IMG/VR virus record: IMGVR_UViG_3300010300_000131
Location: 1 to 21,940 of that record
DNA from: a virus
DNA length: 21,940 bases
Strand: one strand, 5' to 3'
Shown: in pieces, positions 1-21,940 of the stretch
How positions within the stretch are numbered: position 1 is the first letter of the stretch
Layout: each line of letters begins with the position of its first letter
The notes under the pieces: generated by a model
Seen by the model: only the letters and a program-made list of their open reading frames with translations
What the model was told of the DNA's origin: nothing
The model's database searches: none
Made by a program: the position numbers and the translations under genes

Positions 1-1259
1 AACAAAATGGTTATGATGTCCACAGCACCTGATGCCGTGCTCAGTGTGTTGGTGCCTCCTGCAAAAATCATTCTGTTGGCACTGTCTGTGCCATCTGTGA
101 ATGTTCTGTTACCTGTGTTGTCCTGTTCCAAAATCAGTGTGACACTTTGTCCATTTGCCGGATCTGTGAATCCTGTAAATGTGACACTTTCTGTAAGAAT
201 CAATCTCTGTATGTTGCCATCTCTCACATCCACATTGACAGAACCAGCACTGTCTGTGGTTATGGTGTTGATGGTTTCTGTGTAACCCTCTAGATTTGGA
301 TTTATGAATGATTGAAAATTGCAATTCACTGTTTGGTTAAGAGGATTTCTTAAACCAATGTTTTTGCCCAAACCACTATCAAAACCAATGGAAATGTTGT
401 CACCTTCTGCTAGGTTAAATGTGGGTGGTGCCCAACTCAATGTGCCTGCTCCATCCGATGTCAACACATAATCTGGTGAAGGGGAATCACTAAGAGGAAA
501 TCTGTATGATGGCACAAAAACGCTTCCTGTATTGTATGTGCCAAACACAATGGCATTTTCTTCTTGAGTTTGATCTTGACTCACTGCCAATTGTATGTCT
601 TTGTATCTGCCTGATGTGATCCTTAAACCCGGAATGTTTGAATTGTCCAATTGAATACCATGACCATTATTTCCTCCACTGTCTGGGTCAGTTTTACTAG
701 AAATTGAAATACCATGTTCATACAAACGGATCTGAGGTTTATCTGGGTTATAATCGTTTAAAAGTGTGAGCACTCCACCGTGGTTAATGATTTCCACTTC
801 AGAATTTACTGGTGCATTGGGATCATCAGCACTGTCTGGGCCTGTGGGTGTGAATTCCAAACCAACTTCTTTGGTCAGTTTCATCTTCAATCCTGCAAAT
901 TCGGCACTGTCTGCATCATCCACAAAACTGAATCCGTTCACATTCAAATCTTCTGTGAGTGGATTGCCCAAACCACTTGCTGTGGATGAAATGATCACAC
1001 CACCTGTGGAATCTTGATCCACTGTGATGTTGTCACCTGCTGAAATGTTCAACAATTGATAATTGGTGCCTGGTTTTATGGTGCCTGATACGGAATCATA
1101 CACCAACACATCACCATTTTGTATGCCTGATGTGTCCACAAAGTTAACAATATCGTTAACTGCGTCACTCATGGTTTTGAGTTCTGGTCTGCTCTGTGCA
1201 ATTGAATTGTTGTCTGAAGCAAATGCGTTGGAATCTGGTTTGTTAATTGGCCATGCCAT
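1..1259 (-). CDS. Tail fibre protein, 3' end outside window
   Basis: The frame is open from an ATG at 1259 to the left window edge (about 419 residues seen), so the C-terminus is missing. The start shares one base with the preceding stop (TAATG) and has GAGG about 8 bases upstream. The N-terminus (MAWPINKPDS, then a helix ending VNDIV) matches that of the fibre at 18943-19617, and is followed by a DVLVYDSVSG segment also seen in other fibres here. The middle is beta-rich and repetitive (GDNI, GNNGHGIQL). The last 80 residues seen (ANGQS, TGNRTF, DSANRM, FAGGT, LSTASGA) are paralogous to the C-terminal module of the protein at 21043-21940. By that comparison only about 15 residues lie beyond the edge. 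Likely a trimeric host-contact fibre; the receptor is unknown. Confidence 0.85.
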   Translation of the reverse strand, partial: MAWPINKPDSNAFASDNNSIAQSRPELKTMSDAVNDIVNFVDTSGIQNGDVLVYDSVSGTIKPGTNYQLLNISAGDNITVDQDSTGGVIISSTASGLGNPLTEDLNVNGFSFVDDADSAEFAGLKMKLTKEVGLEFTPTGPDSADDPNAPVNSEVEIINHGGVLTLLNDYNPDKPQIRLYEHGISISSKTDPDSGGNNGHGIQLDNSNIPGLRITSGRYKDIQLAVSQDQTQEENAIVFGTYNTGSVFVPSYRFPLSDSPSPDYVLTSDGAGTLSWAPPTFNLAEGDNISIGFDSGLGKNIGLRNPLNQTVNCNFQSFINPNLEGYTETINTITTDSAGSVNVDVRDGNIQRLILTESVTFTGFTDPANGQSVTLILEQDNTGNRTFTDGTDSANRMIFAGGTNTLSTASGAVDIITIL

Positions 1260-8898: not shown

Positions 8899-9303
8899 TT
8901 ACACAGTTGCTTCTACTAAAGGTCCTGTTCCTTGGAATGATACTGTTGCTGTTACCAAGTCATCAAATGATGCTGTTCTTGAAACTGAAGTTAGGATCAC
9001 TTCACCTTCGTAAACTGCTCCTGATGATGAGTTTGGTATAAATTGCACATGCAAAGTGGCATCGTTTGCTGGATCAAACACAGTTGCGCCTGTTTCTGTT
9101 GTGTCATACACAACTTCCATAGTGCCTGTGAATTGATGCAATCCTGCCAAATATGTTCTTGCTCCGTCGCCCATTGCTGTGTTTTCAATTACATCTTTTG
9201 TGTGTTCCACAGTCCAAGATCTAACATTCGCCACTGCCGTCATTGCGCCACCGGAATCTGTTCCATACTTCACTGTACCGTTTTCACCTGTAAGTGTTGC
9301 CAT
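8899..9303 (-). CDS. Major tail tube protein
   Basis: 134 residues, almost entirely beta-strand type with many Thr and Val: GTVKYGTDSGG, VRSWTVEHTKDVIENTAMGDGARTY, GTMEVVYDT, ending VTATVSFQGTGPLVEATV. The SWTVEHTKDV-ENTAMGD stretch is typical of siphophage tail tube proteins, which stack as hexameric rings around the tape measure. Length is in the usual range for a single-domain tube protein without an added Ig-like domain. GAGGAG precedes the ATG, and the upstream stop TAA lies just before it. It precedes the chaperone and tape measure genes, as expected. Confidence 0.87.
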   Translation of the reverse strand: MATLTGENGTVKYGTDSGGAMTAVANVRSWTVEHTKDVIENTAMGDGARTYLAGLHQFTGTMEVVYDTTETGATVFDPANDATLHVQFIPNSSSGAVYEGEVILTSVSRTASFDDLVTATVSFQGTGPLVEATV

Positions 9304-9305
9304 GA

Positions 9306-9587
9306 TTATTTCTCCTCGTTATTGTTTTTAAAATCATCCTCTGAATATGTCCAATTGTCTTCTTCCAAATCCATTTCACTGTGTTTGATTTGTTCAATTA
9401 GATCCTCGTTGGATAATTGTGTTGATTGTTTAACTTCTGGTTCTGCAATTTTCAATTTGCGTTTAGAAGTTTTTTTCGTAGATGTGTTTGAAGTTTTTTC
9501 AGTCCAACCTGCATCTAGAAACCTCTGTAATCTGTCTGCTTCTATTTTTTTAGATTCTTGATCTTTGTGTATGGTAATATATTTCAT
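9306..9587 (-). CDS. Small charged protein of the head-tail region, unknown
   Basis: 93 residues. It has a compact N-terminus (MKYITIHKDQE, then ADRLQRFLDAGWTEK), a Lys/Thr/Ser-rich middle (about residues 32-46) and a very acidic C-terminus with many Asp, Glu and Asn. The RFLDAGW segment could form a short helix-turn docking motif; the rest looks disordered. It overlaps the upstream gene by one base (TAATG), so it belongs to the head-tail joining group between tail terminator and tail tube. I do not recognise a family and assign no function. Confidence 0.7.
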   Translation of the reverse strand: MKYITIHKDQESKKIEADRLQRFLDAGWTEKTSNTSTKKTSKRKLKIAEPEVKQSTQLSNEDLIEQIKHSEMDLEEDNWTYSEDDFKNNNEEK

Positions 9588-10036
9588 TATACTGCTCCTT
9601 TGGTAAATGAATATCTCACTTCCACTGTCATTACAAATTCTCCCAGTGGTGGTGTTCTATCAATCACTTCTATTGTTCTTACTCGTGTCGTACTGGCCCT
9701 CGCCTCTGCTAATTCTCTGGTTCTGTCCGCATTGAGTGTTTCTTCTATGCGTTCTATCAATTCATTGCGTTTTTGATCCACAGTGGTGATAGAACCTTGA
9801 CGGCCATCTGCTCTCACAAATCCTCTGATGGCAACTTCTATGATGCCTCTGCGATAACCACCCATGGCATCGTCTTCTCTGGTTTCATTGCCTGTGGTTA
9901 TTAACACAGCAGGAAACTGTGTGATTGCCAATTTGTTCACATCAAATGGTTCGCGTGTCACAATGACAGGTTTTGGTGGTCGCATGTCCTCCAATACTTC
10001 AATGATGTTTTGTGCTATGTTTTCTCTGTTGCTCAT
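9587..10036 (-). CDS. Tail terminator/head-tail joining protein
   Basis: 149 residues. It starts with a helix (NRENIAQNIIEVLEDMRPPKP), then FPAVLITTGNE, a strand pair GIIEVAIRGFVRADGRQG, an Arg/Glu helix (KRNELIERIEETLNADR) and a final strand EFVMTVEVRYSF. This helix-strand-helix-strand order is that of tail terminator proteins (gpU-like), which cap the tube and join it to the neck. It lies three bases after the connector gene and one-base overlaps the next. The family name is inferred from order and predicted secondary structure; a minor neck protein is the alternative. Confidence 0.72.
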   Translation of the reverse strand: MSNRENIAQNIIEVLEDMRPPKPVIVTREPFDVNKLAITQFPAVLITTGNETREDDAMGGYRRGIIEVAIRGFVRADGRQGSITTVDQKRNELIERIEETLNADRTRELAEARASTTRVRTIEVIDRTPPLGEFVMTVEVRYSFTKGAV

Positions 10037-10827: not shown

Positions 10828-11685
10828 TTATAAGTTAGCGTCTCCAATTAATGCTACTCCGTATTCGTCGAACAATTCAGAAACACCATATGCCCAAGAT
10901 CCAACGATTTCGTCAGCTCTTAAAGAAGCATCTCTTTGGTTTTCAATTCTGAACTCTCTTTTGATCATTACGCCCAATGCGTCTTGATGGAAAGCACCGC
11001 CCACGAATGCGCCTGCTGAGTCACCAGTTACTGTGTTTGATTCCACTATAACAAGATTTGCTATACGGCCTACAAAACCAGTTCTGATTGCCTCGTTAGC
11101 AACATCAGAAACATTACCAGAAGCACCAAAAGTGTTTGATAAACTTTTCTTGATCTGGAATGCTTGTTTAGGGTGTAACACACAGTAGATGTCACCTGAA
11201 GGCACATTATTTGATCTCAATAATGCTTGGGCCTTAAATAGGTCTTCCACTGTTAACTCTCTTGCGCCTGAACCCACAACATTTGTTGTGAATCCTGTGA
11301 AAAGAGCGGCAACATCTTTGTCAAATTGTTCTGCTAGTGCACCACCAATTTGAGTTCCCACTGCTTGTGCCACATTGTCTGTAGCAGTTTCTTTCATAAG
11401 ATCAGTTAATGTTACCATTACACCTCTCTCTGAAGCAGTGATTGTTTTAGATGTTGTCACATCAAAAGTGGCATTAGTTAAATCTGCACCATCTGCTGGT
11501 GAAGACACTGCCACTGTTGGGTAGATTGGCACACTTGCTGTTAAACCAGGTGTTCCAACCATGTTGTAGTTACGGATCAGATTTCTCATCACCGATTTTT
11601 CGTTTAATTGGTAAAGTCCCGCTTGAGTAATATTGTTATACAACGCGGTACTTGCCACTGTATCAAATGCATTTGTTGCTGGCAT
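10828..11685 (-). CDS. Major capsid protein (HK97 fold)
   Basis: 285 residues, with a strong AAGGAG ribosome site. Directly after the scaffold gene and before a strong terminator, as for the most abundant virion protein. Features expected of HK97-fold coat proteins: an N-terminal helix region (LYNNITQAGLYQLNEKSVMRN), a strand-rich E-loop region (VPIYPTVAVSSPADGADL), a spine helix (TDNVAQAVGTQIGGALAEQFD), LEU-rich P-domain text (ELTVEDLFKAQALLRS), YCVLHPKQAFQIKK, and a final REFRIENQRDASLRADEIVGSWAYGV typical of coat protein ends. No N-terminal protease site or delta domain is evident; scaffolding is a separate protein. It carries one DSAG turn (VTGDSAGAFVGG). Confidence 0.92.
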   Translation of the reverse strand: MPATNAFDTVASTALYNNITQAGLYQLNEKSVMRNLIRNYNMVGTPGLTASVPIYPTVAVSSPADGADLTNATFDVTTSKTITASERGVMVTLTDLMKETATDNVAQAVGTQIGGALAEQFDKDVAALFTGFTTNVVGSGARELTVEDLFKAQALLRSNNVPSGDIYCVLHPKQAFQIKKSLSNTFGASGNVSDVANEAIRTGFVGRIANLVIVESNTVTGDSAGAFVGGAFHQDALGVMIKREFRIENQRDASLRADEIVGSWAYGVSELFDEYGVALIGDANL

Positions 11686-11704: not shown

Positions 11705-12412
11705 TTAAACACGAATACCTTTAGATTTCATTATTTCTTTGTAACGAGCTCTATGTTCAGGTATACTCATGTTAAGTTGACTTATATCATTTGTGGCCAA
11801 CGATTCTTTACTGCCCTGTCCTTGTCCTACACCAGAACCTTTTGGTCCTGCTGAAACAAAGTGAGGATTAGATTGAAGAAACTCATTCACCAAGTCTTTC
11901 ACTTGTATTGGATCACCTGCATCATTGTAACGCACTTGTCCTGTTTTTAAATCAATCACATCCACTGTGCCTGCTTCATTCAACTTCAGTTGATTTTTGA
12001 GCAATTGTGTAACCTGATTAGGGTTAATTGCTCTGGCGTTGGACGCCTCTGATAGCAGTGCACCATCAACCTTGATAGAAGTCAGTTCTGACTGATACTG
12101 TTGGATTTTAGAAGTGAATTTTTCCGCTTGTTCTTTCAACAATTGTTCAAATTGACCTCTTTTTTCCAACTCTATCTGTCGGGTCTTTTCTTCCTTCTCG
12201 ATCAACTTTTGATAGTGATCAACATCTATGCTTCCATACTTTTTTTCGTATTTGGCACGCTCCCTCTGTACTCTTTCTGCCACAATCTTGTCTAAATCTT
12301 GTTGACTGAAAGTTTGAGTTTTGGTTTCTTCTTGAACCGTTGTGGGTTCTGCCTGCTCTTTGATTTCAGGTGCAGTGTCCTGAGATTTTACCGCTTGTAT
12401 TTCTGCGTTCAT
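11705..12412 (-). CDS. Capsid scaffolding protein
   Basis: 235 residues directly upstream of the capsid gene. The N-terminus is Glu/Gln/Thr-rich and likely disordered. A long charged coiled coil follows (about residues 38-115, QQDLDKIVAERVQRERAKYEKK then QFEQLLKEQAEKF), next a compact region with LKTGQVRYNDAGDPIQVKD, a Gly/Ser-rich stretch GPKGSGVGQGQG, and a basic C-terminus (RARYKEIMKSKGIRV), as expected for coat binding. This is the usual pattern of scaffold proteins that guide procapsid assembly and then leave. The ATG has an ideal AGGAGG site. No protease Ser/His motif is seen. Confidence 0.87.
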   Translation of the reverse strand: MNAEIQAVKSQDTAPEIKEQAEPTTVQEETKTQTFSQQDLDKIVAERVQRERAKYEKKYGSIDVDHYQKLIEKEEKTRQIELEKRGQFEQLLKEQAEKFTSKIQQYQSELTSIKVDGALLSEASNARAINPNQVTQLLKNQLKLNEAGTVDVIDLKTGQVRYNDAGDPIQVKDLVNEFLQSNPHFVSAGPKGSGVGQGQGSKESLATNDISQLNMSIPEHRARYKEIMKSKGIRV

Positions 12413-12480: not shown

Positions 12481-12561
12481 TTAGCGTTTTCTTTTGCCTC
12501 GCATTGAACCTTTTGAAGATTTTTTGTTCTTGTTGGGTTTTCTTTTTCCTCGCATTGCCAT
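12481..12561 (-). CDS. 26-residue Lys/Arg-rich peptide with repeated RGKRK
   Basis: Twenty-six codons, ATG at 12561 and TAA at 12483-12481. It starts MAMRGKRK and ends with a second MRGKRKR; the middle is Lys/Asn/Ser. More than half of the residues are Lys, Arg or Asn. An AAGGAG site lies 7 bases upstream, and the gene begins two bases after the methyltransferase stop, so translation is well supported. It shares the RGKR end with the 42-residue protein at 13948-14076. Such basic peptides could bind DNA or the inner capsid, or be substrates of the adjacent enzymes; neither is shown. Very short genes can be spurious, but the ribosome site and repeat argue against that. Confidence 0.7.
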   Translation of the reverse strand: MAMRGKRKPNKNKKSSKGSMRGKRKR

Positions 12562-12563
12562 GA

Positions 12564-13130
12564 TTATGCTCCTTGTTTGTTGGGTTTCATTATGACATCG
12601 CTTCTTAAATGATGTGCAATGTGATAATTCAGTTTCAACAACAGATCAATCACTGTTTGATTTTCGTTGCGTTTGTTTTCAAACATGATGACTGGTCTGC
12701 TGATCATAATTGTATTTAATGCACCTCTAATCACTTCCAATTCACCCTGTTCCACATCAATCTTGATCAAGTCAACACCTTGCAATTTGAAACTGTCCAG
12801 GGTTGTGCCTTGCACTGTGTGACTGGTGGTTTCTTGCCATTTGGATTGTCTTCTTGGTGCCACACTGCCATGTGCAGGATTGTTTGTGATGTTGGGTATT
12901 TGCAATGTCACTGTGCTTTCATGATCCATCAATGCACACTGATGTGCCTGTATTTTTGTATTGGTAATTAATTTTTTAAATGTGTTAGGATTGGGTTCAA
13001 ATGCCACCACTGTGTCAAACAGATCCACAAATGGATGACTGGTGTCACCATCATTGGCACCCACATCTACATATGTGCGTGTTTGTTTGCAGTGTGGTAT
13101 TGCAAACCTACTGATCAGTGTTGAGCTCAT
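12564..13130 (-). CDS. FkbM-family SAM-dependent methyltransferase
   Basis: 188 residues with the FkbM signature in order: YVDVGANDGD (motif I for S-adenosylmethionine, residues 20-29), FEPNP (44-48), TTLDSF (109-114) and DLIKIDVEQGE (120-130), then VIMFENKRNE. FkbM enzymes O-methylate sugars or other small hydroxylated groups; the substrate here is unknown. Length is somewhat shorter than many family members but all core motifs are present. ATG 13130 has AAAGGA six bases upstream and overlaps the ATP-grasp gene end by 23 bases. It lies inside the head gene cluster between portal and scaffold, an unusual place for such an enzyme. The first 19 bases are nearly repeated at 13933-13951. Confidence 0.9.
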   Translation of the reverse strand: MSSTLISRFAIPHCKQTRTYVDVGANDGDTSHPFVDLFDTVVAFEPNPNTFKKLITNTKIQAHQCALMDHESTVTLQIPNITNNPAHGSVAPRRQSKWQETTSHTVQGTTLDSFKLQGVDLIKIDVEQGELEVIRGALNTIMISRPVIMFENKRNENQTVIDLLLKLNYHIAHHLRSDVIMKPNKQGA

Positions 13131-13929
13131 TTTGTATCCTTTTATAGATTATGTCTGTGCCCATTTTGTTTCCATATTTGCCTTTTTTTGGCAATGTGTC
13201 CATTTCAGCAATCACTGTGTGTGTATCACCTATCATGTCTATTCTCATAAATTCAAACATTTCTCCCAAGGCCAATGCTCTGTCAATCTGTGTGGTCCAA
13301 TTTGCAGGTTTTGTAAAATTACCTTTTCTGCTGTTGACCAACACAAAACCCAAATCATTTCCATCTATGTCCACGATGTTTTCGTATTCGTCTTTTATGG
13401 ATATATCTGAAATAACCTGTGTGAATATGTGTTTGCCCTTGTAGATAAAATGTTTATAATCTATTCTGCTGTGGATGTTAGGTTCGCTAAAAAATATTTC
13501 ATCCATGTTTGCATAATCATAAATTTTATATTCCTTCCTATTCAAACTTTTGTTTCTAATCCAATTGACCAGTTCTTTGTATGATTGAATGCCATTGCGA
13601 CCATTACGATTTACTGTGACATTATTGTTGATTACTCTTGCATTGGCACCACTGTACAATCCACATTTGATCCAATAATCATCATGTTTTGTCATATTGT
13701 AAACTGTGTCGATGTCTTTGTCTGCAAAAAGTGTTGGTGCACACCAATCCCCATAATTTTTTTTGATGTGTTGTTTCATTGTGTATTTGTTTTGCATCAC
13801 AGCATACAGAGGAGATTGTGTGCTACGGTGATGACATGATTGAATCAATTTATTCAGAGCAAATGATTCATATCCTAAATCATACTGCAATCGATTTTTG
13901 CTGGCGATGTTTGAACTATAAGGAGGCAT
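13108..13929 (-). CDS. TupA-like ATP-grasp protein
   Basis: 273 residues. The pattern agrees with TupA-like ATP-grasp enzymes: NKYTMKQHIKKNYGDW (about 47-62), DYWIKC then SGAN (84-96, nucleotide-binding lysine K88 and loop), RIDYKHFIYKGKH (155-167), TKPANW (206-211), and FEFMRIDMIGD followed by AEMDTLPKKGKYG (225-252) with R229, D231 and E242 as likely ATP/metal ligands. The family includes teichuronopeptide ligase TupA and joins acids to amines or decorates surface polymers. The ATG at 13929 has no clear ribosome site and sits inside an 11-codon frame starting at 13951, so coupling is likely. It is flanked by 19-base imperfect direct repeats, suggesting insertion. It looks AT-richer than the portal gene. 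Substrate unknown. Confidence 0.8.
   Translation of the reverse strand: MPPYSSNIASKNRLQYDLGYESFALNKLIQSCHHRSTQSPLYAVMQNKYTMKQHIKKNYGDWCAPTLFADKDIDTVYNMTKHDDYWIKCGLYSGANARVINNNVTVNRNGRNGIQSYKELVNWIRNKSLNRKEYKIYDYANMDEIFFSEPNIHSRIDYKHFIYKGKHIFTQVISDISIKDEYENIVDIDGNDLGFVLVNSRKGNFTKPANWTTQIDRALALGEMFEFMRIDMIGDTHTVIAEMDTLPKKGKYGNKMGTDIIYKRIQNELNTDQ
13112..13130. repeat. 19-base imperfect direct repeat, copy at methyltransferase start
   Basis: Matches 13933-13951 at 17 of 19 bases. This copy holds the start codon of the methyltransferase gene and the end of the ATP-grasp gene. It contains two palindromes: ACTGATCAGT (13110-13119) and TGAGCTCA (13122-13129). Confidence 0.85.
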
Positions 13930-13951
13930 TATTAATCAGTGCTGAGCTCAT
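13916..13951 (-). pseudogene. Remnant methyltransferase start (MSSALINNASL)
   Basis: An ATG at 13951, overlapping the stop of the 42-residue gene (ATGA), opens 11 codons reading MSSALINNASL before TAG. The methyltransferase begins MSSTLIS. The likeness suggests this was the original methyltransferase start before the ATP-grasp gene was inserted. It could now act as a coupling leader for the ATP-grasp gene. Confidence 0.5.
13933..13951. repeat. 19-base imperfect direct repeat, copy before ATP-grasp gene
   Basis: Partner of 13112-13130, offset 821 bases, 17 of 19 identical, with the TGAGCTCA palindrome conserved at 13943-13950. The two copies bracket the ATP-grasp gene almost exactly. Confidence 0.85.
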
Positions 13952-14076
13952 CTGCGTTTGCCACGATAACCTGCGGCCCTGATTGCTCTGCCTTGTCTTT
14001 CTGCTTGTTTTTTTGTTTTGTAAATTTTACCACTGGTGCCCCAACGGTATCCACCCTTGACTTTTCTAACTGGCAT
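13948..14076 (-). CDS. 42-residue basic head-region protein
   Basis: Forty-two residues, ATG at 14076, TGA at 13950-13948, with AGGAG six bases upstream inside the portal gene end. It starts MPVRKVKGGYRWG, continues SGKIYKTKKQAERQGRAI and ends AAGYRGKRR. The compact GGYRWG-SGK-Y pattern followed by a basic helix is typical of small proteins found near head genes of marine phages, whose role is not known to me. It could bind DNA or the portal. It directly precedes the ATP-grasp/methyltransferase pair and shares the RGKR ending with the 26-residue peptide on the other side of that pair. Confidence 0.8.
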   Translation of the reverse strand: MPVRKVKGGYRWGTSGKIYKTKKQAERQGRAIRAAGYRGKRR

Positions 14077-14078
14077 GA

Positions 14079-15599
14079 TTACTCCTGATTTAGTAATTGC
14101 TGTTTCGCTGTGTTGATGTCTTCTTGTGTGATTTCAGAATGCAGTTGCAGTATCTGTTGATCTGTGTAACCTTGCATGATCATTTCTTTGATGTGTGCTG
14201 ATCTGTCAATGGTTGTGGTTACTGGATGTTCCATTTCCTCTTCTTCATCTTCCAAATCCATGGCATCATCTTCCATCACAGTTCTATAAATTTTCTTGTC
14301 TATTTCTGCATTGATTCTAGGATCTGATATGTTGGATTCTTTGGCCATCTTCAATATTGAAATGTCATTTGCTCTGTCCTGTATGGAAAATGATCTTGGA
14401 TATTCTATTTCACCATCAAATGTGGTGCCTTGATACAGTGCATACAATCTCCATATCTGTTCTTCTGCGTGTTCAAACTGTGCGGCATAAGTGGCCAATT
14501 TACTGCTCAATTGACTGAACTCTGATGATATGGCAACTCCTGATAATCTTCTAGACTCTGGAGATCTAATTCCGCCTAGGTGGTTGGTTCTGTCAATGGA
14601 TTCAATTTTTTTCTCCATGGCACTCAACACAGATTCTATTGATGCACCTGATGGTTGTAGCAAGAAAGGTTTTAGATTGCCATCCAAATTTTGTGGCATC
14701 TGTATGATTGAACCTGCACCTGCTGATGCTTCTGTGTCCACAGTTTTTACCAAAGTGGGATGATTGGTCAATCTCACAATCTGTTCTATTTCAGATGAAA
14801 ATTCGAACAGTTCTCTGCAGATGTCCGCCGTGTCTCCCAATGGTGAAACACCAATGCCTCTGATGGGTGATCTCTGTGCATACACACAAACTGCTGGCAC
14901 TCGGCCCAATTCGTTTGGCATGGTTTCCACATATTCACCTTCTTTGCGATCATTGATTTTGTAAACATTGATTTCATCTGGTGTGTATTCTCTGATGTAT
15001 TGTGTGCCACCAATAATTTCTTCTTTGACCTTTAGATAGGTTAGACTGTAAAATCCGTTTGATTGTCTTTCATATTTCCAATCCAAAACATCCATGGGTT
15101 GAAACAGTGACACATAAGGTCTGATTTCCTGTTCTAATTCTTCTGCTCTGGTCATTGCTTGACTGTTGATTTTGTCCACAATTACCCAACAGTGACCATA
15201 CACCATGCTCCATGTTGCCAGGTCTTGTAGCAGTTGTGTAAATGATCTGCCATCCAAATCACAATCCTGCATGAAGGCATTTACATTGGGTTCAGTGGCA
15301 AGATTGCCCATGTATCTAACAGGTTCTTTTCTAAATAAAAATGAATTGAATATCGAGGCCACACTCTTCACATGATTGTCGTAACCCACCATTCTCAATC
15401 TTTTTTCGTAATCATCTCTTGATTCGTAGTAGTATGGTTCTAGATATTTGCCCAAGAAATAGTTGAAACCACCGTAGTATGAATCCTGCAAAAACTGCCA
15501 TCTGTTCACAAATGTTTGATATGCTTCATGTGTTTCCACAATGTAAGACGCATAGTTTCTTGTGTCACCTTTGATTAATCTGTCTCGTATAACTGCCAT
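14079..15599 (-). CDS. Portal protein
   Basis: 506 residues, directly after the terminase large subunit (one-base TAATG overlap). The N-terminal part (YVETHEAYQTF region and YYYESRDDYEKRLRMVGYDNHV), the LATWSMVYGHCWVIVDK segment, DVLDWKYERQSNGFYSLTYLKV and a later helix-rich core with AMEKKIESIDRTNHLGG and SGVAISSEFSQLSSKLATYAAQFEHAEEQIWRLY match dodecameric portal proteins of the DUF4055/SPP1-like type. It forms the vertex through which DNA is packaged and the tail is attached. The C-terminus is acidic (DDAMDLEDEEEEMEH) then helical. No head protease or MuF gene follows; the accessory island does. Confidence 0.9.
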   Translation of the reverse strand: MAVIRDRLIKGDTRNYASYIVETHEAYQTFVNRWQFLQDSYYGGFNYFLGKYLEPYYYESRDDYEKRLRMVGYDNHVKSVASIFNSFLFRKEPVRYMGNLATEPNVNAFMQDCDLDGRSFTQLLQDLATWSMVYGHCWVIVDKINSQAMTRAEELEQEIRPYVSLFQPMDVLDWKYERQSNGFYSLTYLKVKEEIIGGTQYIREYTPDEINVYKINDRKEGEYVETMPNELGRVPAVCVYAQRSPIRGIGVSPLGDTADICRELFEFSSEIEQIVRLTNHPTLVKTVDTEASAGAGSIIQMPQNLDGNLKPFLLQPSGASIESVLSAMEKKIESIDRTNHLGGIRSPESRRLSGVAISSEFSQLSSKLATYAAQFEHAEEQIWRLYALYQGTTFDGEIEYPRSFSIQDRANDISILKMAKESNISDPRINAEIDKKIYRTVMEDDAMDLEDEEEEMEHPVTTTIDRSAHIKEMIMQGYTDQQILQLHSEITQEDINTAKQQLLNQE

Positions 15600-16843
15600 T
15601 ATCTAACTCCTTGTGTTGTTTTGCTGAATGACCATCTTGTGGGTTGTTGAATATCAATTTCTCTTTTCACAGGATACAAATAATCAATCAAATAACCCAC
15701 AGCATCCGACATGTGAGTGTTTTCTGTGTTTTCTACTTGATAAGAATTTTCTCTGTACTGTAGAGATTCTAAACTTTTGATAATCTGTTTGCATTTTGGA
15801 TCTATGAACACTGATCTGATTCCTTGTGAGTTTTTTAGTTTACTATTTACAGCATTGACCCTGTCTCTGATGGGCGGATTGGCATTTTTGTAATGCACAT
15901 TGAATCCTGCATTTTGCAATATTGAAATGTCTGTTCTTCCACCTGCAGATGTTCTTCTCTGTTTGCCTGCCGCATCTGGATACACATGGATTCTTGAATT
16001 TGGATATCTTCTTTTCAATTCATCACATATCTGTTCTGTGCTGGATTCATTGATTGATATTTCATCAATAAAATATAAACAATTGTTTTGAATCACAGAT
16101 ATTGCCACACTGAATGGTGAATAGTTGAAGTCCATACCACAGTGTATTTGCATTTTTTCTAAACCACTGCATGGTTTAACCACTTCTGATCTATCAAAAT
16201 TATAATACACACTGCCTGCATATGTTAAGAATGTAGATTCATATTCTTGTTGGTATGTTCTTTCATCCAAATCTCTTTTTGCATCTTCTAATTCTTTTTG
16301 ATCAACAATTCCACCATCTATGGTCTTGAAACTGAATGCGTCCCAATCATCTGTGTGTTTTGCTGTGCTGTACATTTGATGTGAAAAAGATCCAACACCT
16401 TTTGGGGTGCCTATGAACAATGCTTTGCCTTTTCTGTCTGACAGTGTTGGTCTCAAAACATTTTTCCACAATTCTTCATCTAAATCTTGATATTCATCCA
16501 TCACTAAAAAATCTAATCCAACACCTCTTAACCCGTCTTTGTTCTCTGCACCTTTCAGTGTGATTTTAGATCCTGATTTTAATCTTAATGTTAATTCTGC
16601 TTCATTGCTTTGTTCCAACCACTTGTATTCTTTCAACATGTTCTTCAACTGCTCCCACACAATGCCTTTTGCTTGTCGATAACTGGGTGCCACATACCAT
16701 ACATTTTTGTTCATGTCACTGGCATGTCTCATCAATTCACATATGGCCACAAAAGTTTTTCCAAATCTTCTTCCGCACACAGCAGTTCTAAATCTTTTGT
16801 TTGAATTTACAATTTCACCCTGTGCTTTGCTCAATTGAATCAT
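15599..16843 (-). CDS. terL: Terminase large subunit
   Basis: 414 residues, the DNA packaging motor. The ATPase has Walker A CGRRFGKT (residues 23-30), an adjacent VWYVAPSYRQAKGIVW segment, Walker B LVMDE (113-117) and the coupling motif LFIGTPKG. The nuclease domain begins with HCGMDFNYSPFSVAI (catalytic Asp), has DEISINESSTEQI and a later YPDAAG Asp, and ends with THMSDAVGYLIDYLYP, typical of large terminases. Length is usual for the family. It overlaps terS and portal genes by one base each (TAATG). Confidence 0.95.
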   Translation of the reverse strand: MIQLSKAQGEIVNSNKRFRTAVCGRRFGKTFVAICELMRHASDMNKNVWYVAPSYRQAKGIVWEQLKNMLKEYKWLEQSNEAELTLRLKSGSKITLKGAENKDGLRGVGLDFLVMDEYQDLDEELWKNVLRPTLSDRKGKALFIGTPKGVGSFSHQMYSTAKHTDDWDAFSFKTIDGGIVDQKELEDAKRDLDERTYQQEYESTFLTYAGSVYYNFDRSEVVKPCSGLEKMQIHCGMDFNYSPFSVAISVIQNNCLYFIDEISINESSTEQICDELKRRYPNSRIHVYPDAAGKQRRTSAGGRTDISILQNAGFNVHYKNANPPIRDRVNAVNSKLKNSQGIRSVFIDPKCKQIIKSLESLQYRENSYQVENTENTHMSDAVGYLIDYLYPVKREIDIQQPTRWSFSKTTQGVR

Positions 16844-21042: not shown

Positions 21043-21940
21043 TTATGAGAAGTTGGTTGACAGTGAAGCATAATAAGTGCCACCTGCATAAAAAATGGTC
21101 ATGATATCTGTGGCGCCACCTGCTGTGCTCAGTGTGCTAGTACCACCTGCAAACAGCATTCTGTTGGCAGAATCCAAACTTTCAGAGAATGTTCTATTCC
21201 CTGTACCGTCTTGATGTATGATCAATGTTAAACTTTGTCCGTTTGCCACACTGTTGAATCCTCCAAATGCCACAGCACCTGTCAGAGTGATTTCCTGCAC
21301 ATTGCCGTTGGCCACATCTGGTGTGATGGTTGCCGCATAACTCAATTGATACACAGTTTCTGAATAATCTTTAAGATTGATCTGACTGAGTGTTTGATCA
21401 CCACCCACCACTGGTTGGTTGAGTGGATTACTGAATGCCACTGTGAATTCACCTGCTGAATCTGGTTGTGTGATGGTGATGTTGTCACCTCCCACAATCT
21501 GTGTGTCTATGATATCTGATGTGAGTGCGAATGTGCCTGTGCCACCTGGAATAGTGTGAGTGTTAATGGTGCCTGTGATGTCAGCATTGCCATCTATGTC
21601 CAAACTGTCTGCTTGTAATTCTCCTGTGATATCAACACCATCTGATTTTGTTGTGAATTTTAAATTGTTGTCATAGTAAATTGCCACTCCGCCATTCTCT
21701 GTGGCAGTAATCATCAATTCACCTGTTGAACCGTTGATGGATACTGTGCTTCCTGTGATGGCATTGCCATTCACTGCTAAATCACCACCTAATGTTGGGG
21801 TGGTGTCTGTGCTGATGTCCAATGCTTGATGTTGCCACACACTGGTAGCAGAATTATACACAAGATAATCATTGTTTGCCGCCGCCGCTGTGTCCACATC
21901 TTCTGCATCTTTGATTCTTCTTGAAAAAGTTGGTCGCACC
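21043..21940 (-). CDS. Tail fibre protein, 5' end outside window
   Basis: About 298 residues seen; the frame is open to the right edge. The first codons (GTG CGA CCA) give no reason to place a start there, and RIKDAEDVDT followed by DYLVYNSATSVWQ looks like an internal fibre segment, so the gene probably begins outside. The middle has LGGDLAVNGNAITG, a beta-helix-like series with VDITGELQADSLDIDGNADITGTI, typical of phage fibre shafts. The C-terminal 90 residues (ANGQSLTLI, TGNRTF, DSANRMLFAGGT, FYAGGTYYASLSTNFS) form a tip module duplicated in the fibre at 1-1259. Confidence 0.85.
   Translation of the reverse strand, partial: VRPTFSRRIKDAEDVDTAAAANNDYLVYNSATSVWQHQALDISTDTTPTLGGDLAVNGNAITGSTVSINGSTGELMITATENGGVAIYYDNNLKFTTKSDGVDITGELQADSLDIDGNADITGTINTHTIPGGTGTFALTSDIIDTQIVGGDNITITQPDSAGEFTVAFSNPLNQPVVGGDQTLSQINLKDYSETVYQLSYAATITPDVANGNVQEITLTGAVAFGGFNSVANGQSLTLIIHQDGTGNRTFSESLDSANRMLFAGGTSTLSTAGGATDIMTIFYAGGTYYASLSTNFS

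Follow-up and report, generated by a model that had tools for sequence, protein, structure and literature searches.

Sugar-modifying genes are already known in phages, and several described systems can be compared with the locus reported here. In pelagimyophages, a variable island of the structural region contains LPS-related genes, which also occur elsewhere as clusters of two or three and were explained as a means of coinfection avoidance (PMC7029224). The sugar genes of SAR11 and jumbo phages were likewise read as modifiers of the host envelope (PMC7029224, PMC7824862). In mycobacteriophages, capsid and tail-tube subunits are reported to bear glycans (Freeman, 2023, cited in PMC12619734). 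Among bacterial enzymes, the TupA-like C-terminal domain of Cj1438 (Cj1438C), which belongs to the capsule pathway of Campylobacter jejuni, was reported to amidate the glucuronic acid in the capsule of this bacterium (PMC11800379). The closest described phage is DSL-LC06 (OR003941, proposed family Nanhuiviridae, PMC10611076), a related lake phage with a portal 57.6% identical to ours, the same order of head genes and FkbM and glycosyltransferase genes in its genome.

The stretch of DNA that was analysed, called the window below, is the 21,940-base record of an uncultured aquatic phage, in which the recognised large genes all lie on the minus strand. They are transcribed in the order terminase large subunit, portal, 42-residue protein, ATP-grasp, FkbM, 26-residue peptide, scaffold, major head protein and tail genes. 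The features discussed here are the following:

15599..16843, minus strand: terminase large subunit (phrog_2, PF03237)
14079..15599, minus strand: portal, the upstream border of the swap site (phrog_145, E 5e-63)
13948..14076, minus strand: basic protein of 42 aa (phrog_31267 family), beginning MPVRKVKGGYRWG
13933..13951, minus strand: left copy of a repeat, ATGAGCTCAGCACTGATTA, which begins in the stop codon of the 42-residue gene and reads MSSALI, like the FkbM N-terminus
13108..13929, minus strand: TupA-like ATP-grasp protein of 273 aa (PF14305, our own TupA profile and invariant residues)
13112..13130, minus strand: right copy of the repeat, ATGAGCTCAACACTGATCA, which is the start of FkbM (MSSTLI)
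12564..13130, minus strand: FkbM-family SAM methyltransferase of 188 aa (PF05050, TIGR01444, phrog_8156, AlphaFold2 model)
12481..12561, minus strand: basic RGK-repeat peptide of 26 aa, just upstream of the scaffold gene
11705..12412, minus strand: head scaffolding protein, the downstream border of the swap site (phrog_206, E 3e-14)
10828..11685, minus strand: major head protein (phrog_267, PF25209)

The genes are tightly packed, with 2 nt from the end of the portal to the 42-residue gene, 18 nt from the latter to the ATP-grasp gene, a 23-nt overlap between the 3' end of the ATP-grasp gene and FkbM, and 2 nt from FkbM to the 26-residue gene. In our reading of the sequence, Shine-Dalgarno-like stretches accompany the 42-residue gene (AGGAG), FkbM (AAGGA) and the 26-residue gene (AGGAG), and none was seen for the ATP-grasp gene. 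The preliminary description of this DNA had placed these four open reading frames, with their order and overlaps, between portal and scaffold, and had noticed a common RGKR tail on the two peptides. All of this was recovered, with the neighbours identified by phrog matches and the peptides ending in YRGKRR and MRGKRKR. An assembly artefact can be dismissed, since the same four genes recur on three other contigs with 99-100% protein identity.

The methyltransferase is a member of the FkbM family, as had been proposed. It matches PF05050 with 75.8 bits (Pfam) and TIGR01444 with 85.2 bits (NCBIfam), well over the cut-offs, as well as phrog_8156, and its SAM motifs D22-x-G-A-x-x-G28 and F44-E45-P46 are invariant in 27 phage sequences. 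Its AlphaFold2 model (pLDDT 93.5) has as top PDB match the solved FkbM protein 2py6 (E 2e-7), with which it shares motifs and fold. Compared with FkbM proteins at large, the enzyme of the window is a short form from a phage subfamily that is tied to head genes, and it shares 40-53% identity with its relatives in marine phages. FkbM-type methyltransferases are common in surface-polymer clusters, an example in our material being locus L162. The best bacterial relative among the scanned genomes (36%) lies in Vibrio rhodolitus, in a cluster that also contains glycosyltransferases, a flippase-like gene and rhamnose-precursor genes; a TupA ATP-grasp gene (PF14305, 147.9 bits) is located 2.5 kb away. 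This supports the earlier suggestion that TupA and FkbM enzymes meet in surface-polymer clusters. However, the Vibrio locus illustrates the link and gives no measure of it, since a TupA gene was near FkbM in one of six bacterial FkbM loci.

The assignment of the ATP-grasp protein to the TupA family also held. The general Pfam scan overlooked it, but a direct search gave 41.9 bits against PF14305 (cut-off 25), and a profile that we built from six bacterial TupA proteins gave 44.2 bits, whereas none of 200 shuffled sequences scored above 5.9 and the reversed sequence scored -1.2. In phage numbering, K48, Y139, E149, D157, R229, D231 and E242 are invariant between the phage protein and five bacterial members, and the lysine of the vIKxxH motif is also retained; the roles of these residues in binding ATP or metal are inferred from the TupA family. 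The phage enzyme resembles the TupA-like amide ligases, of which the domain of Cj1438 is an example, in its match to PF14305 above the curated cut-off and in the conserved K, E, DYK, R-x-D and E residues, but it is a free-standing protein of 273 aa located in a phage head operon, and is only 16-21% identical to the bacterial TupA members aligned with it. It appears divergent and yet looks active, as a predicted amide ligase. Single-sequence AlphaFold2 prediction gave an unusable model (pLDDT 31), and a PDB sequence search with this protein and FkbM returned nothing useful.

TupA-like amide ligases are rare in phages. Two bacterial TupA queries matched 4 of 50,697 phage records, all of them without annotation, and the one that was opened is flagged UNVERIFIED. 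An exact-peptide scan of 84,980 genomes yielded no confirmed relative of the ATP-grasp protein, and PF14305 found no match in 50 related viral records, in a search whose controls gave no matches either. Searching the proteins of 398 genomes from a single phylum gave no relative either, which shows little given that identity to bacterial TupA proteins is only about 20%. As no close relative was found, the substrate of the phage enzyme could have drifted from uronic acids.

Across the lineage, the gap between portal and scaffold genes measures 0.3-2.7 kb and differs widely in content. It contains a cupin, an FkbM, a GT9 heptosyltransferase-like gene and a second FkbM in L010, Methyltransf_24 with GT9 in L014, and GT9 alone in L017, while Methyltransf_24 is the sole enzyme in L023 and L070 and FkbM stands alone in L040 and L045. 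In two relatives, Methyltransf_24 is also weakly similar to CmcI/rhamnosyl O-methyltransferases. The gaps of other relatives hold small membrane-protein-like genes, or peptides and nothing else, and that of DSL-LC06, despite a homologue of the 42-residue protein at the same site, harbors no enzyme, its sugar genes being located about 7-13 kb away, upstream of the terminase. The gap is therefore a swap site whose enzyme cargo changes, and enzymes of sugar modification recur in it. The cargo of the relatives (GT9 heptosyltransferase-like, FkbM, Methyltransf_24, cupin) belongs to the same chemical class as that of the window and counts in favour of a sugar substrate. It weighs against a direct modification of a head protein, of phage DNA or of nucleotides, in which no glycan would take part. 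The site among head genes would suit such an activity, and proteins or nucleic acids are the substrates of certain ATP-grasp and methyltransferase families, but neither TupA nor FkbM is known as a nucleic-acid family and the cargo of relatives is glycosyltransferase-like, so that we hold direct modification to be very improbable.

Two comparisons show how the cargo may move. The FkbM proteins of L010 and L045 are 96% identical despite portals that are 79% and 61% identical, respectively, to the portal of the window, which suggests horizontal exchange. L046 and L040 form a natural empty/occupied pair with nearly identical flanks, of which only L040 has an FkbM gene (188 codons), located at the stop codon of the 26-residue gene. 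The allele of this small gene also differs between the two loci, and in L040 it nearly equals that of the distant L068, a switch that locates one crossover inside its RGG repeats; the basic peptide gene thus supplied a repeat for cargo exchange in a relative. The pelagimyophage island similarly holds sugar-modifying genes of the structural region in small swappable sets, but it is large (mean about 45 kb), includes tail fibres and belongs to T4-like phages (PMC7029224), whereas the genes described here occupy a small, well-delimited site, with an empty/occupied pair, in an unrelated small phage. In 58 relatives, the portal is followed by a conserved small gene (for example L034 6521-6811), which encodes at most 96 aa, gives a weak match to a histone H1-like family (PF07432, 28.5 bits) and is absent from the clade of the window.

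The two basic peptides were surveyed in the portal-to-scaffold interval of 80 loci, which form 33 clusters at 90% portal identity and 36 cluster-states. The preliminary description had considered that the enzymes might act on these peptides, which they immediately adjoin, and peptide modification by ATP-grasp enzymes is indeed known from RiPP loci. The precursor of a graspetide would travel with its enzyme, but both peptides occurred without any enzyme in 8 of the 36 cluster-states and an enzyme without the 42-residue protein in 5, and presence of peptide and enzyme were unrelated (Fisher p of 0.71 for the 42-residue protein, 0.65 for the 26-residue peptide and 1.0 for both), the counts for the 26-residue peptide being lower bounds, as the motif filter demanded closeness to the scaffold and missed L040. 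The latter peptide is kept in most relatives, whether enzymes are present or absent, and most relatives have peptides but no enzymes. The place of FkbM varies too, from before the fused peptides (L045) to between the peptides (window, L010) or after the 26-residue peptide (L040), and FkbM occurs in T4-like phages at unrelated loci and without the peptides, a pattern that the preliminary description had itself named as evidence against its proposal. In composition, the 26-residue peptide contains no Asp or Glu and therefore cannot be a substrate of the graspetide type, modified on carboxylate side chains, and the 42-residue protein has a single Glu. Moreover, the ATP-grasp protein matches TupA and no peptide-ligase family. 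A cassette modifying the peptides was thus rejected on co-occurrence and composition, and we find it scarcely credible.

Other features of the peptides place them among the genes of the phage head. Both families are fused into one open reading frame (MPVRKV...GRAIMAMRGGKKKKKTRGGKKKK) in 3-4 clusters, the short fused protein being seen in L037, L039, L042, L045 and L073-L075. The 42-residue protein is a widespread small phage protein, which in Edwardsiella phage Edno5 constitutes the N-terminal part of a protein annotated as head maturation protease and in phages of Aeromonas, Roseobacter and Streptomyces occurs by itself. Since relatives swap the enzyme genes at this site, the peptides are ordinary head-region genes, and neither dedicated partners nor substrates of the enzymes.

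In the window, the ATP-grasp gene is bracketed by the two copies of a 19-nt direct repeat, identical at 17/19 positions and 821 nt apart. An equally good repeat was found somewhere in the region in 14/200 shuffles, hence it is notable only for its position at both gene borders, which was noticed post hoc. It is probably an insertion scar; in the simplest reading, FkbM formerly came directly after the 42-residue gene, the two overlapping by ATGA, and insertion of the ATP-grasp gene would have taken place at the FkbM start. This scar-like repeat, and the patchy distribution of the cargo, with TupA confined to one clade among the relatives examined, would also be expected of passengers, that is, of recently gained sugar genes for whose function the phage would be under no selection. 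However, the frames are open with catalytic residues intact on four contigs, and the same site has been refilled repeatedly with one enzyme class, which makes mere passengers quite improbable.

We consider it marginally probable that the two enzymes form a late-expressed cassette for glycan decoration, made of an amide ligase and an O-methyltransferase, carried in the swap site and probably directed at the host surface. This site of the late head operon would be filled with sugar-decorating enzymes, emptied of them and filled again. The ATP-grasp enzyme would activate a carboxylate, probably on a sugar of the uronic-acid type, and join it to an amine to form an amide, whereas FkbM would methylate a sugar hydroxyl. 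Both would be produced late, alongside the head proteins, and would alter a surface glycan, most likely the envelope polysaccharide of the host, so that the dying cell and its debris would cease to bind progeny or rival phages. The host envelope is favoured because the sugar genes of SAR11 and jumbo phages were so interpreted by those who described them, and because a pair of finishing enzymes requires a pre-existing glycan when no glycosyltransferase is recognised beside it. No glycosyltransferase was recognised in the window, which ends near the position of the glycosyltransferase cluster of DSL-LC06, so that further sugar genes may be located beyond its end. The record is probably incomplete, and a comparison of its right end with other viral contigs, made for its extension, gave no match.

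Late expression would fit a virion target equally well. The pair could finish a glycan on the phage's own capsid or tail, in synchrony with the head proteins, as the genes overlap within the late head operon and such a late position is seen in two unrelated lineages. The nearest relatives of the window FkbM are found in marine T4-like phages, where at least 41 of 66 loci, counted without dereplication of the contigs, have the same subfamily directly behind the head-closure gene gp4 (phrog_218 on two examples), near terminase genes. The glycans reported on mycobacteriophage capsids and tail tubes (cited in PMC12619734) offer a precedent. On the other hand, 19 of the 66 T4-like loci lie behind a UvsW-type helicase, the lack of a recognised glycosyltransferase in the window also speaks against this reading, and position in an operon gives timing and not target. 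Decoration of the virion is consequently possible but rather unlikely. Its extended form, that capsid or tail would bear an amidated, O-methylated glycan and the gap would be a dedicated, exchangeable virion-coat locus evolving by crossovers in basic peptide genes, is in our opinion unlikely. Because one FkbM subfamily is recurrently tied to head genes, in two phage lineages that are unrelated, the choice between host and virion coat becomes a testable one.

Some further observations concern these T4-like loci and the window. FkbM was seen between gp4 and the terminase genes in L088, L108, L112 and about 40 T4-like loci. Some T4-like FkbM loci have a cupin that closely resembles the one in L010 (PF07883 in the latter), and this very similar protein thus accompanies FkbM in both the small-phage lineage and T4-like phages (L010 6767-7123; L090 5098-5457; L094, L104, L106). 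No RNA element or tRNA was found within the window, and PADLOC gave no defence-system match for the 42-residue protein, ATP-grasp and FkbM. Finally, two appendage-like proteins at the opposite ends of the window (3-1259 and 21043-21939, minus strand) have a common C-terminal module, ..GQSxTLIxxQDxTGNRTF..DSANRMxFAGGTxTLSTA.., to which the C-terminus of the DSL-LC06 protein encoded at 9053-9892 is similar.
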